Origin: Porphyromonadaceae bacterium H1
GTDB taxonomy: Bacteria; Bacteroidota; Bacteroidia; Bacteroidales; Paludibacteraceae
Assembly: GCA_001653155.1 (NCBI GenBank)
Contig: BDEJ01000041.1
Coordinates: forward strand, 1 to 64,000
Length of the DNA stretch: 64,000 nucleotides
Reading direction: 5' to 3'
Shown here: positions 720 to 46,279 of the stretch, in pieces
How positions within the stretch are numbered: the first letter of the stretch is position 1
How the letters are laid out: each line of letters starts with the position of its first letter
The notes under the pieces: model-generated
What the model saw: only the letters and a program-made list of their open reading frames with translations
Databases searched by the model: none
Told to the model about the DNA's origin: nothing
Made by a program: the position numbers and the translations under genes

Positions 720-756
720 AAGAGCCGCATTTCAACAGTTTGCGGCTCTTTCTTTA
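720..756 (+). terminator. Factor-independent terminator
   Basis: A 10-bp perfect stem (720-729 with 741-750) around an 11-base loop, followed by a T-rich stretch. It ends the 229-693 gene. Confidence 0.85.
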
Positions 757-784
757 ACAAGAAAATATCCTAACCGGTAGTTCT

Positions 785-910
785 TAATACCTCTGAGGCT
801 CCTTTTAATACCTTGGAGCGACTTTTTAATACCTCTGAGCAACCTTTTAATACCTTCGAACTACCTTTTAATACTTCCGAAGTACTTTTTAGTATCCCCG
901 CTTAATGTTT
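785..910. repeat. 21-bp degenerate tandem repeat, six units
   Basis: Six head-to-tail units of exactly 21 bases start at 785, 806, 827, 848, 869 and 890. The first five share the frame TAATACCTnnGAnnnnCTTT; the sixth has drifted. Read on the minus strand, units 1-5 give heptads of the form K-x-x-S-x-V-L, but there is no start codon and stops flank the run, so I do not call a gene. There are no unique spacers, so it is not a CRISPR array. It fills most of the 346-base gap between the terminator and the next promoter. Confidence 0.85.
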
Positions 911-988: not shown

Positions 989-1022
989 TTTGGAGGCAAT
1001 TGGATTTTTTCATGTACCTTTG
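989..1022 (+). promoter_or_regulatory. Bacteroidetes-type promoter of the O-acetylation operon
   Basis: TTTG at 989-992 and TACCTTTG at 1015-1022 match the -33/-7 pattern, with a 22-base spacer. Transcription should begin near 1029, so the GTG at 1022, which would lengthen the next protein, lies inside the promoter and cannot be the start. Confidence 0.6.
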
Positions 1023-1039: not shown

Positions 1040-2485
1040 ATGGGCAAAACAGAGAAAGATTATTTCGGGCAGTTGCTGGTTATCATGCTGATAACGCTGC
1101 TGAGTTGCTTGGGATTGTATTGGCTTCCGAATGAGCTGTTCGGTATTCCGATCAAGAAAGTGGATCTGCTGTCCGATCTGCGCATGAAAGAAAGGCCTCT
1201 TTTGTCCGATTCAGCGGAGCTGTTACTGTCCGGTACGCTGCCTGTGGATTCCTTGCCGACTTCCGACACGCTAAGTATCCGGGGCTTCAACCCGCAAGAG
1301 ATTAGCCGGCGTAATGCGGCTTATCGGAATCGGGCTTCGAGTATGCCGAAAGATACGACGGGCACCCGAATCGAAGATTATTCGGTGGGACATACGGGTT
1401 TGTATCATTTCTTCAAAGCCTTGAACCGCCAGGGAAGCCTCAAGCGCCCGGTACGAATTGCTTTTCTGGGCGACTCGTTTATCGAGGGGGATATTATTGT
1501 GGCCGACTTCCGCGCCAAGATGCAGACCCTGTTCGGGGGGCGAGGCGTAGGCTTTGTCCCGATACTGTCGGAGGTGGAGCAATATCGCCCGACAGTCAAT
1601 CAGCGTTCGAAAGGATGGGTAACCCGTTCGATGCTTAGCGACCGCAAGCATAAATACGTGCTTCCGGGTTTGCTTTTCGATGCCGATCCGGAATCGGGGG
1701 TGCCCTCGATTTCCTTCAAGACGGTGGATAGCTACCCTCGTTTGGAAGCGGTTTCGTCGCTCAAATTCATCTATTCGCGTAACACACAGTCGGAGATACG
1801 CTGGACATGCCGGAGCGATACGATTGTCGATATACTGCCGGTTACCGACTCGATTGTACAGTATGAAGTGAAAGGACGGTTTACGGATGGGCAACTGCGC
1901 TTCCATAAAGCGCGTGGATTGCGGGCGTTGGGGATTGCCTTAGAAGACAGCAGCGGGGTGGTGGTGGATAATTTTTCGCTGCGTGGCAATTCGGGCATGC
2001 CTTTGCGCGATCTGGACGAGTCGAGCTGTATGGCTTTCCGGAACGTGCGCCCTTACGATCTGCTTGTCCTGCAATACGGTTTGAACGTGGTTACGGAGCA
2101 AACGAAGGAATACAGTTGGTATCGCAAACGGATGGTAGAGGCTATCCGTCACGTGCAGCGTTGTTTTCCGGAGGCGGATGTGTTACTGCTCAGCGTGTCC
2201 GACCGCAGTCATTACCGCGACGGAGCCTATCGCACGATGCCGTCTGTACGGGCTTTGCTGCGTGCCCAGCGGGAAGCGGCAGCCGAGGCCCGGGTGCCTT
2301 TCTGGAGCGTTTTCGCGGCAATGGGGGGCGAAGACAGTATGGTACGCTACGTGGAACGACGCTGGGCAAGCAAGGATTATACGCATCTGAGCTTTCGCGG
2401 CGGGCGCGAGCTAGCGGCTTCGTTGTTCGATGCATTGATTTTAGAAAAAGAGTTTTATGATGAAATGGATAAAAAAACATATTAA
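1040..2485 (+). CDS. SGNH/GDSL hydrolase-fold protein with N-terminal membrane anchor
   Basis: 481 aa from the ATG at 1040. Residues 8-30 form one membrane segment, so the rest is probably periplasmic. The SGNH fold shows GDS at 144-146 (nucleophile Ser146) and a DYTH block at 446-449 supplying Asp446 and His449. It is the first gene of a tightly overlapping set with a second SGNH protein and an MBOAT acyltransferase. Such trios resemble alginate- and cell-wall O-acetylation systems, where SGNH proteins (AlgJ/PatB-like) move acetyl groups onto a sugar polymer after the MBOAT carries them across the membrane. The polymer here is unknown. The role is inferred from fold and context. Confidence 0.8.
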   Translation: MGKTEKDYFGQLLVIMLITLLSCLGLYWLPNELFGIPIKKVDLLSDLRMKERPLLSDSAELLLSGTLPVDSLPTSDTLSIRGFNPQEISRRNAAYRNRASSMPKDTTGTRIEDYSVGHTGLYHFFKALNRQGSLKRPVRIAFLGDSFIEGDIIVADFRAKMQTLFGGRGVGFVPILSEVEQYRPTVNQRSKGWVTRSMLSDRKHKYVLPGLLFDADPESGVPSISFKTVDSYPRLEAVSSLKFIYSRNTQSEIRWTCRSDTIVDILPVTDSIVQYEVKGRFTDGQLRFHKARGLRALGIALEDSSGVVVDNFSLRGNSGMPLRDLDESSCMAFRNVRPYDLLVLQYGLNVVTEQTKEYSWYRKRMVEAIRHVQRCFPEADVLLLSVSDRSHYRDGAYRTMPSVRALLRAQREAAAEARVPFWSVFAAMGGEDSMVRYVERRWASKDYTHLSFRGGRELAASLFDALILEKEFYDEMDKKTY

Positions 2486-18619: not shown

Positions 18620-19774
18620 ATGGCAGCAAAAAGAGATTATTACGAAGTGCTTGGCGTAGCTAAAACGGCCAGCGCAGACGAACTGAAAAAGGCATACCGC
18701 AAAAAAGCTATTGAATTTCATCCCGATAAAAATCCGGGCGATAAAGACGCAGAAGAAAAATTCAAAGAAGCGGCCGAAGCATACGAAGTACTGAGCGACC
18801 CTCAAAAACGGGAGCGTTACGACCGCTTTGGCCATTCAGGACTGGGTGGAGCCGGAGGCTTCGGCGCTAGCGGCGGCATGAATATGGAGGACATCTTCTC
18901 GCACTTCGGCGACATATTCGGAGGACACTTCGGAGGTTTCGGTGGCTTTGGAGGCTTCTCTTCTTCACGAGGCGGTCAACGGATGCGCCGGGGAAGCGAT
19001 TTGCGTGTAAAAGTAAAATTGACTCTCGAAGAAATCGCCAACGGAGTCGAAAAAAAGATCAAAGTAAAAAAATACGTAAACTGCCCGCAGTGTCAAGGAA
19101 CGGGAGCTGCAGCCAATACCTCTCCGACAACCTGCAGCACTTGCCAGGGCTCCGGACAAGTTACCCAGGTGCGGCAAACCATACTGGGACAGATGCAAAC
19201 GACCTCCGAATGCCCAACTTGCAAAGGATTCGGAAGCATCATCAAAGAAAAATGCAAACACTGCCAAGGCGAAGGGATCTCTCACGAGGAAGAAATTATC
19301 TCCATCAACATTCCGGCAGGGGTGATGAGCGGCATGCAACTCTCGGTAAGCGGAAAGGGTAACGCCGCACGACGCGGAGGAATAAACGGCGATCTGCTGG
19401 TGCTTATCGAAGAGGAAGAACACCCCGAACTCATACGCGATGAGAACGATCTCATATACAACCTGCTGCTAACTGTCCCTGAGGCAAGCCTCGGCACCTC
19501 GGTCGAAATTCCGACCATAGAAGGAAGAGCCAAAGTGACTATTGCAGCCGGAACTCAACCGGGTAAAGTGCTCCGCCTGCGCGGCAAAGGCTTGCCCAGC
19601 GTCAATCAATACGGGAAGGGAGATTTACTGGTAAACATCGGGGTTTACATCCCCGAAAAGTTGACTAAGGAGGAGAAGAAAAACATGGAAAAACTACTCG
19701 AATCACCCAACGTAAAACCAAGTCCTACAGCAAGTAAGAATTTCTTCTCGCACATCAGAAACATGTTTGAATAA
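18620..19774 (+). CDS. dnaJ: DnaJ co-chaperone, type I
   Basis: 384 aa. The J-domain (1-70) holds HPD at residues 33-35. A Gly/Phe-rich stretch (about 75-115) follows. Next is the zinc domain with four CxxCxGxG repeats, CPQCQGTG near 155, CSTCQGSG near 172, CPTCKGFG near 198 and CKHCQGEG near 212, then the substrate-binding domains. All parts of a type I DnaJ are present. Transcribed with grpE. Confidence 0.97.
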
Positions 19775-45100: not shown

Positions 45101-45134
45101 GGTTTACTATGTAGCAAGGTTTACTATGTAGCAA
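45101..45134 (-). repeat. Exact 17-bp tandem duplication truncating the SIR2 gene
   Basis: GGTTTACTATGTAGCAA occurs twice with no gap (45101-45117 and 45118-45134) and eight bases begin a third copy. Because 17 is not a multiple of three, it shifts the frame and creates the stop at 45107. With one copy removed the reading frame continues 36 more codons, to a stop at 44991. Confidence 0.9.
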
Positions 45135-46279
45135 GGTTTACTGGTTCCAAACTCTTCAAGAATAAGGCGATTTATTTCTGTATCCTTACAACCATACCCA
45201 ATGATTATCAACTTTTCCGCTTTTTTCAAGTTTTGTTTGAACAGGTCAAATAATCTTTTGTAGAACAATGGTTCCCTATATCTGCTAATCTTTGAAGTTG
45301 TTCCTGTCAAAAAATCAGGATGATAGTTAATGGGGCAGTTCTCATATTCGACTAATTTACCTTTCTTTTTTATTTCCTTGTAGAAATCCGTGTCACTTAT
45401 TCCCCAACGAGTTTTTATATACGCATCAGAATATGAGCGAAGTCCTTTCGTTGTATAATATACATAATAATCTCTACTCCCATGTAGCTTATAAAGACGT
45501 AGCTTTTTGTTATATTTGCCCGTATATCTTGACAATCTGCAATTATATGTTCTATTATTGCAATATAGTTTACCATAAAACGGAGAACCTAATTCTTCAA
45601 ATCCATCACATAGCTTTCCATCTATCGATTCTGTGCGGTCTAATTGCTCAAAAAACAAGTCGTGATTAAGAGTGTGTACATTTAAAGAGTAGTTCTCCAA
45701 TAATGATTCTATACAATTAAGAAAGCCAGTATATCCACTGAATGATGATTTGGATTCATCATCATAGTAACTTTTACCATCTCGATCCACCAAAAAAAGA
45801 TCAACCAATTGATTGTAAATAATACGATCAATTTGATTTATATACATTTCAAAATTTTCAAATTCATTTTTTTTATAATCTCCTTGATTAAAAAGGCACT
45901 TTAATCCATTGTCATTAACTGCTTTTTCTTTTAAAAAATCATAAAATTCCTCATAATCAAACTCCTTTATTTTCTCATTATAGTAAGCAATCGAATCAAT
46001 ACAAAAATGAAAATACGAATCGTATTGTGATTCATATCCTGCATCAGGTTTTGAGCCATCCTCGTTAAGAACTAAAGTACCACTACTATTAAATGCCAAA
46101 TCATCCTTTCCACAACTCAGTATTTTCTTATTTAGCTGACTTCCTATAGGATATCCTTCAGGAGCTGAAAAACCCGCTCCTAATAAAAATGAAATTGTTT
46201 TCTCACTTTTATAACGTCTCAATATTTCTTGATTCTTCAATATTCGACGCATTCGTTTTTTCCTACCTTTTTTTGCCAT
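45107..46279 (-). CDS. SIR2-domain protein, candidate defence effector (C-terminally truncated)
   Basis: 390 aa as it stands. The NAD-binding SIR2-like core is visible: FLLGAGFS at 31-38, TLNHDLFFEQL with the Asn-Asp pair near 204, KLHGS near 265 and IIGYGCKDTEINRLI near 359-370. Stand-alone SIR2 proteins often deplete NAD when phage are sensed; whether this one does is inference. A basic start (KKGRKKRMRR) precedes the core. The 17-bp duplication replaces the original end; the lost tail, VNPYENPNVTDFIIKMG onward, would end at 44991. The AT-rich neighbourhood supports horizontal origin. Confidence 0.72.
   Translation of the reverse strand: MAKKGRKKRMRRILKNQEILRRYKSEKTISFLLGAGFSAPEGYPIGSQLNKKILSCGKDDLAFNSSGTLVLNEDGSKPDAGYESQYDSYFHFCIDSIAYYNEKIKEFDYEEFYDFLKEKAVNDNGLKCLFNQGDYKKNEFENFEMYINQIDRIIYNQLVDLFLVDRDGKSYYDDESKSSFSGYTGFLNCIESLLENYSLNVHTLNHDLFFEQLDRTESIDGKLCDGFEELGSPFYGKLYCNNRTYNCRLSRYTGKYNKKLRLYKLHGSRDYYVYYTTKGLRSYSDAYIKTRWGISDTDFYKEIKKKGKLVEYENCPINYHPDFLTGTTSKISRYREPLFYKRLFDLFKQNLKKAEKLIIIGYGCKDTEINRLILEEFGTSKPCYIVNLAT

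Follow-up and report, generated by a model that had tools for sequence, protein, structure and literature searches.

Why an intergenic array of short repeats should keep exact 21-bp phase while its sequence drifts, and what such an array might serve, is the question raised by a locus at the start of contig C41 in the 2.84-Mb draft genome of Porphyromonadaceae bacterium H1, of which a stretch of 64,000 nucleotides (hereafter the window) was analysed. Twenty-one base pairs equal two turns of B-DNA, and the original prediction read the array either as intrinsically curved DNA or as a platform for a protein that binds one face of the helix. The main point of our analysis is a link that this prediction had not seen and that lies beyond the stretch it described, namely that between the array and the gene upstream of it.

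Structure of the window array and its surroundings

The window array was confirmed by TRF (784-874/891, period 21, score 105, 0% indels in the best rows), and scores 133 when read as 42-bp double units (TRF, 784-874). Lag autocorrelation gave z = 9.5 at lag 21 and 8.9 at lag 42, with all other lags at or below 2.5. From both methods, we delimit a non-coding, 21-bp-phased array at 784-891, with no strand assigned, comprising 5.1 units in an alternating 42-bp A/B arrangement. The units differ by substitutions only, and indels are absent. The exact phase and the lack of gaps originally predicted for six units hold. The first five units stand out clearly, and the sixth (889-909, TTAGTATCCCCGCTTAATGTT) is decayed, the part of it beyond the delimited array (892-909) being assigned by sequence reading. 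Direct reading also points to a probable half-decayed first unit at 769-783 (CCTAACCGGTAGTTC versus CCTCCGAGCTACCTT).

Upstream of the array, on the plus strand, lies a gene at 229-693 encoding 154 amino acids (MSQDSKIS...FPGRPKK), predicted to be all-helical with a basic tail and belonging to no known family; it is referred to here as the MSQ gene. The gene ends 91 bp before the array, and the best 126-bp lag-21 window begins 75 bp past its stop codon. Between the two stands an intrinsic terminator of the MSQ gene (721-757, plus strand; AGAGCCGCATTTCAACAGTTTGCGGCTCT followed by TTCTTTAA), with a hairpin at about 721-749 ahead of the T-run and a folding energy of -15.3 kcal/mol; a consensus terminator scan with a loop limit of 8 did not list it. 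On the 3' side, a Bacteroidetes-type promoter of the next gene (989-1022, plus strand; TTTG ... TACCTTTG) has its promoter-like TACCTTTG at 1015-1022, so that the placement of the array between a terminator and a promoter was correctly foreseen. The next gene (1040-2485, plus strand) encodes an SGNH/GDSL-like hydrolase that is 79% identical to a protein of Tannerella forsythia, which points to a Tannerella-like host; the reading frame of the gene opens with GTG at 1022 and has an ATG at 1040, and we regard it as a neighbour outside the module proposed below. The same promoter-like sequence also precedes the T. forsythia orthologue of this gene (L008), where the array is absent, and from the sequence the promoter is probably not part of the module either. 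The sole other strong array in the window is a perfect 17-bp tandem repeat of 2.5 copies at 45101-45142 (GGTTTACTATGTAGCAA).

Association of 21-bp arrays with the MSQ gene

The gene most closely related to that of the window (66% identity), from another family (L064), is followed by a 9.5-unit array 90 bp after its stop codon, a spacing about equal to that in the window, and the units of the two arrays have the core ACCTCCGAAGTAC in common. This resemblance of gene and array led to a direct test of association with the MSQ gene, using a TRF-free criterion of at least 0.5 for the best 126-bp lag-21 identity. By this criterion, arrays were present downstream of 35 of 48 MSQ loci and upstream of 2 of 48 (p = 8.5e-13, loci from related genomes being not fully independent), and downstream of none of 23 recJ genes drawn from these genomes (p = 1.2e-9 against MSQ downstream). 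The upstream flank of the MSQ genes is the better control, because recJ has a housekeeping role and more densely packed surroundings. The period is sharply defined: at lags of 18 to 24 bp the downstream counts among the 48 loci were 0, 0, 1, 35, 7, 0 and 0. Stacked autocorrelation downstream of the MSQ genes, taking the best locus per genome, gave mean z values of 5.5, 4.9, 4.2 and 4.2 at lags 21, 42, 63 and 84, against -0.15 +/- 0.30 at other lags. TRF gave a concordant picture, with arrays of class 21n downstream of 18 of the 30 best loci and of 12 of 19 paralogues, at a median distance of 160 bp from the stop codon, upstream of 3 of 30 and 0 of 19, respectively, and downstream of none of 27 recJ loci in the same genomes (p = 3e-7). 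Several loci that lack a TRF array still carry a decayed 21-bp signal in the autocorrelation, and a terminator consisting of a hairpin and a T-run separates gene and array in 12 of the 15 loci checked.

Across Bacteroidales, then, 21-bp-phased arrays are associated with the MSQ gene. The association also appears from the opposite direction: a translated-heptad search across the order, which is biased towards this period, recovered 21-bp arrays in 17 further genomes, and the gene was enriched where arrays had been found (10/17 genomes versus 32/375, p = 8e-7). Thirteen of the 48 loci have no 21-bp array, and some of these have arrays of 22 or 43 bp. Arrays of 22 bp were seen beside the MSQ genes of L281, L283 and L219, with 18-31 copies in two cases and an upstream position in L283. 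One further MSQ locus has, beyond its array, an ORF similar to REP-associated Y1 transposases (L210:2879-3346, genome G306).

The MSQ protein and the array units

Of 393 Bacteroidales genomes, 43 carry the MSQ gene, frequently in multiple copies; its distribution is patchy, and some genomes hold 3-8 paralogues. The proteins are 150-175 amino acids long, with conserved G-D-K, F-V and P..P motifs, a conserved Y and often a basic tail. Searches of Pfam-A, NCBIfam and PADLOC with the window protein and its relatives (25 members scanned) matched no family, and no known DNA-binding domain was found; a single member hit a PHROG of unknown function. A single-sequence structure model was all-helical at low confidence (pLDDT 62) and had no fold match in the PDB. 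Known plasmids and phages gave no match to the family, and a viral scan with a smaller MSQ profile found none; the lone viral match (L289) sits in a tape-measure-like ORF and was rejected as spurious.

The array units are mostly different between loci, although some pairs from different families are clearly alike, and no k-mer was common to all units above the level of shuffles. Dyad symmetry averaged 5.37 of 8 pairs over 35 units, against 4.85 +/- 0.10 in shuffles (0/500 as high), the window unit being only average in this respect (5/8 pairs). Furthermore, unit similarity tracks protein identity (Mantel r = 0.28, p = 3/2000, same-genus pairs included).

Arrays elsewhere in the same and related genomes

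A second array of the window unit lies on contig C48 of the same genome, between recJ and a gene for an outer-membrane beta-barrel protein (G000:C48:17187-17438; 12 units, or 6.0 x 42 bp, 96% match). The alternating A/B 42-bp unit is clearer there than in the window. The two arrays have unrelated flanks and share the repeat alone, and no terminal repeats were seen around either. DNA homologues of the window array were absent from 199 other genomes of the family, T. forsythia, viral contigs and plasmids, and searches of T. forsythia found neither the MSQ gene nor the array.

The expectation that arrays elsewhere in the genome would keep the same period was largely borne out: in 660 kb sampled, the other strong non-coding arrays had periods of 21 or 42 and units unrelated to that of the window, with one 7-bp-based variant and, as the exception, one short array of period 17. 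Further 21-bp arrays were observed in this genome at L105:18421-18674 and 19614-19721 (C7), L108:29-304 (C10) and L101:8700-8758 (C3), likewise with unrelated units and with no MSQ gene found nearby. In 600 kb of the related genome G002, most strong non-coding arrays had base periods of 20-21 or 41-42. Its intergenic arrays (L079, L081, L085, L086, L182, L188, L190 and L197) have periods of 21, 41, 42, 61, 63, 82, 84 and 123, that is, multiples of about 20.3-21 bp; an explanation by codons is ruled out there because of the 41- and 61-bp periods. Eight other sampled genomes of the family showed little 21-bp periodicity, and G490 was mixed, with some arrays of period 41-42 yet no MSQ match reported. 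Many arrays in the window genome and G002 are far from any MSQ gene, and arrays in general showed no preference for gene orientation above baseline.

Alternative explanations

As 21 bp corresponds to seven codons and the unit can be read through without a stop in several frames, the array might encode a heptad-repeat peptide. The minus-strand K-x-x-S-x-V-L heptad of the original prediction does exist as a reading, but it is one of several open ones and bears no protein-level constraint. Synonymous change, assessed by pairwise unit comparisons frame by frame, was inconsistent: the most favourable frame of the C48 array is interrupted by a stop codon in each unit, and the most favourable one of the window array ranks last in C48. 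Three-base periodicity was absent downstream of MSQ genes (-0.04, versus 0.64-0.73 in recJ flanks), and the periods of 20, 22, 41 and 43 bp in related arrays argue against heptad coding. Frame comparison and three-base periodicity gave no sign of translation across the array, as had been anticipated, and a coding role can be set aside almost entirely. It is also very unlikely that the array acts on the promoter of the downstream SGNH gene as intrinsically curved DNA or as an insulator, even though it stands about 105 bp ahead of this promoter and its T-tract is phased. Its predicted bend, calculated with wedge parameters, was 52 degrees (column-permuted arrays, 62 +/- 33; AT-rich genome windows, 42 +/- 22); 31% of the AT-rich windows and 56% of the column-permuted 21-bp arrays exceed it, and the intrinsic curvature originally proposed was not upheld. 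The C48 array ranks in the top 2-5% of AT-rich windows, yet not above its own periodic null. Moreover, T. forsythia has a similar promoter without the array, and the 66% relative is followed by an unrelated, convergent gene. A repetitive RNA with hairpins, transcribed from the array and acting together with the MSQ protein, would be consistent with the dyad symmetry of the units and with the RNA folding of the C48, L105 and L108 arrays, which is significant for one strand or both. This appears unlikely, given that a terminator stands before the array, that the window array folds like shuffles (z = -0.97 and -1.39), that an Rfam search of the array gave no match, and that an RNA has no need of an exact 21.0-bp phase.

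An ordinary minisatellite, arising by slippage or unequal exchange in a long intergenic gap next to an incidental gene, would account for the tandem arrays far from MSQ genes in the window genome and G002 and for the variable number and sequence of units, and Bacteroidales minisatellites are already known (BrickBuilt, PMC4596501). Chance proximity is, however, difficult to reconcile with the contrast between downstream (35/48), upstream (2/48) and recJ (0/23) flanks, or with a period that is practically 21 alone and coherent over four units even when arrays are decayed. Because of this downstream association and the observations on C48 and T. forsythia, both a minisatellite origin, which we consider improbable, and an element belonging to the next gene fit poorly. 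A mobile or self-spreading module similar to a REPtron, in which arrays are made or spread by the protein or by an activity associated with it and seed gene-less loci such as C48, retains a small chance. It would agree with the occurrence of the window unit at two unrelated loci without a common flank, the dispersal of other units in G002, the patchy distribution and the 3-8 paralogues of the gene in some genomes, and the genome-level co-occurrence of gene and arrays. Against self-spreading are the absence of a transposase-like motif or family from the MSQ protein, the lack of terminal repeats or shared flanks at the window and C48 arrays, and the searches of known plasmids and phages, which gave no match.

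A putative protein-DNA module

We favour, with a probability of about 0.6, a two-part module consisting of the MSQ protein gene, its terminator and, beyond it, a non-coding cognate array phased every 21 bp. Two-turn spacing, dyad symmetry, position beside one gene family and co-divergence with the protein are what would be expected if each array were bound by the protein encoded next to it, and we put even odds on binding of the array by the MSQ protein. In such a mechanism, the MSQ protein, probably as a dimer, would bind its own array unit by unit on one face of the helix, and by analogy with iteron- and centromere-binding proteins the bound units might build a phased nucleoprotein filament or cluster. 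Other arrays of the window unit, such as that on C48, could be dispersed sites of the same protein. The phased platform for a protein, as originally proposed, is supported indirectly by the exact 21-bp arrays behind one gene family, the lack of a codon signal and the dyads. More broadly, and at a little short of even odds, these observations would suggest a new and widespread module of Bacteroidales, in which each MSQ copy has its own palindromic array beyond a terminator and protein and array co-diverge; paralogues may recognise different arrays, same-unit arrays dispersed in the genome would offer further sites, and the module might act as a chromosomal filament, as a centromere-like system or as an array-creating agent. 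The complex may have roles in chromosome organisation, silencing, copy control or mobility.

Comparison with known systems

Plasmid iterons with Rep, ParR/parC and TubR/tubC all comprise a gene beside tandem direct repeats that are spaced near whole helical turns and bound cooperatively by the product of that gene. The MSQ arrays share with iterons direct repeats of 17-22 bp at about two helical turns. However, iteron replicons have a Rep initiator beside the array, whereas the MSQ protein and its relatives had no match in Pfam or NCBIfam, and the ParR or TubR family proteins of ParMRC and TubZRC are not matched by the MSQ protein; as no Pfam family matched, the Pfam models of Rep, ParR and TubR gave no match either. 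The MSQ loci further differ from iterons and centromeres in having the array 3' of the gene, usually past a terminator, in matching no plasmid record, and in the occurrence of several paralogues, each with a different unit.

A REPtron consists of a RAYT gene flanked by REP palindromes, together with dispersed solo REPs. Similarly, the MSQ gene stands beside palindromic repeats (weakly so in the window unit), and arrays of the same unit are dispersed in the genome. In contrast to REPtrons, no HUH/Y1 transposase family was detected in the MSQ protein (25 members scanned), the arrays are tandem at 21-bp phase in place of REP doublets, and they lie nearly always 3' only.

BrickBuilt, a MITE minisatellite of Porphyromonas gingivalis, has a 23-bp period, a leader and tail with IS5-like terminal inverted repeats, and about 19 copies of one unit (PMC4596501). 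The window array resembles it in being intergenic and gapless, with a unit of about two helical turns, dispersed loci and a host of a related genus, but differs in its period of 21/42 and in the lack of shared leader or tail flanks, and no partner gene has been described for BrickBuilt. Heptamer-based intergenic tandem repeats were abundant among prokaryotes in the SPADE survey, their fixed period being unexplained (PMC6344855); seven is one third of 21, yet the signal downstream of MSQ genes lies at 21n and not at 14 or 28.

No description of intergenic 21-bp arrays in Bacteroidales was found in the open literature searched, where absence is no proof; BrickBuilt and the heptamer survey came nearest. 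The same literature and the databases searched yielded neither the MSQ family nor its tie to 21-bp-phased DNA. Should the MSQ protein bind its array, about one in ten of the sampled genomes of Bacteroidales, an order that includes major gut and oral commensals, would carry a helically phased nucleoprotein system that is so far undescribed. If so, it would often occur in several, possibly orthogonal, versions per genome. The module would also give one testable reason for the two-helical-turn period of some intergenic minisatellites.

A different association of 21-bp units was observed in genome G387, where a dispersed element of about 200 bp occurs in about 14 places (for example L060:1440-1650 and L078:1440-1650). 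It holds nearly three perfect 21-bp units (TTTGATTCCTCCGAAGTTTCA) between inverted copies of TTCCTACCTAGGAA-type repeats and resembles a MITE with a 21-bp core.
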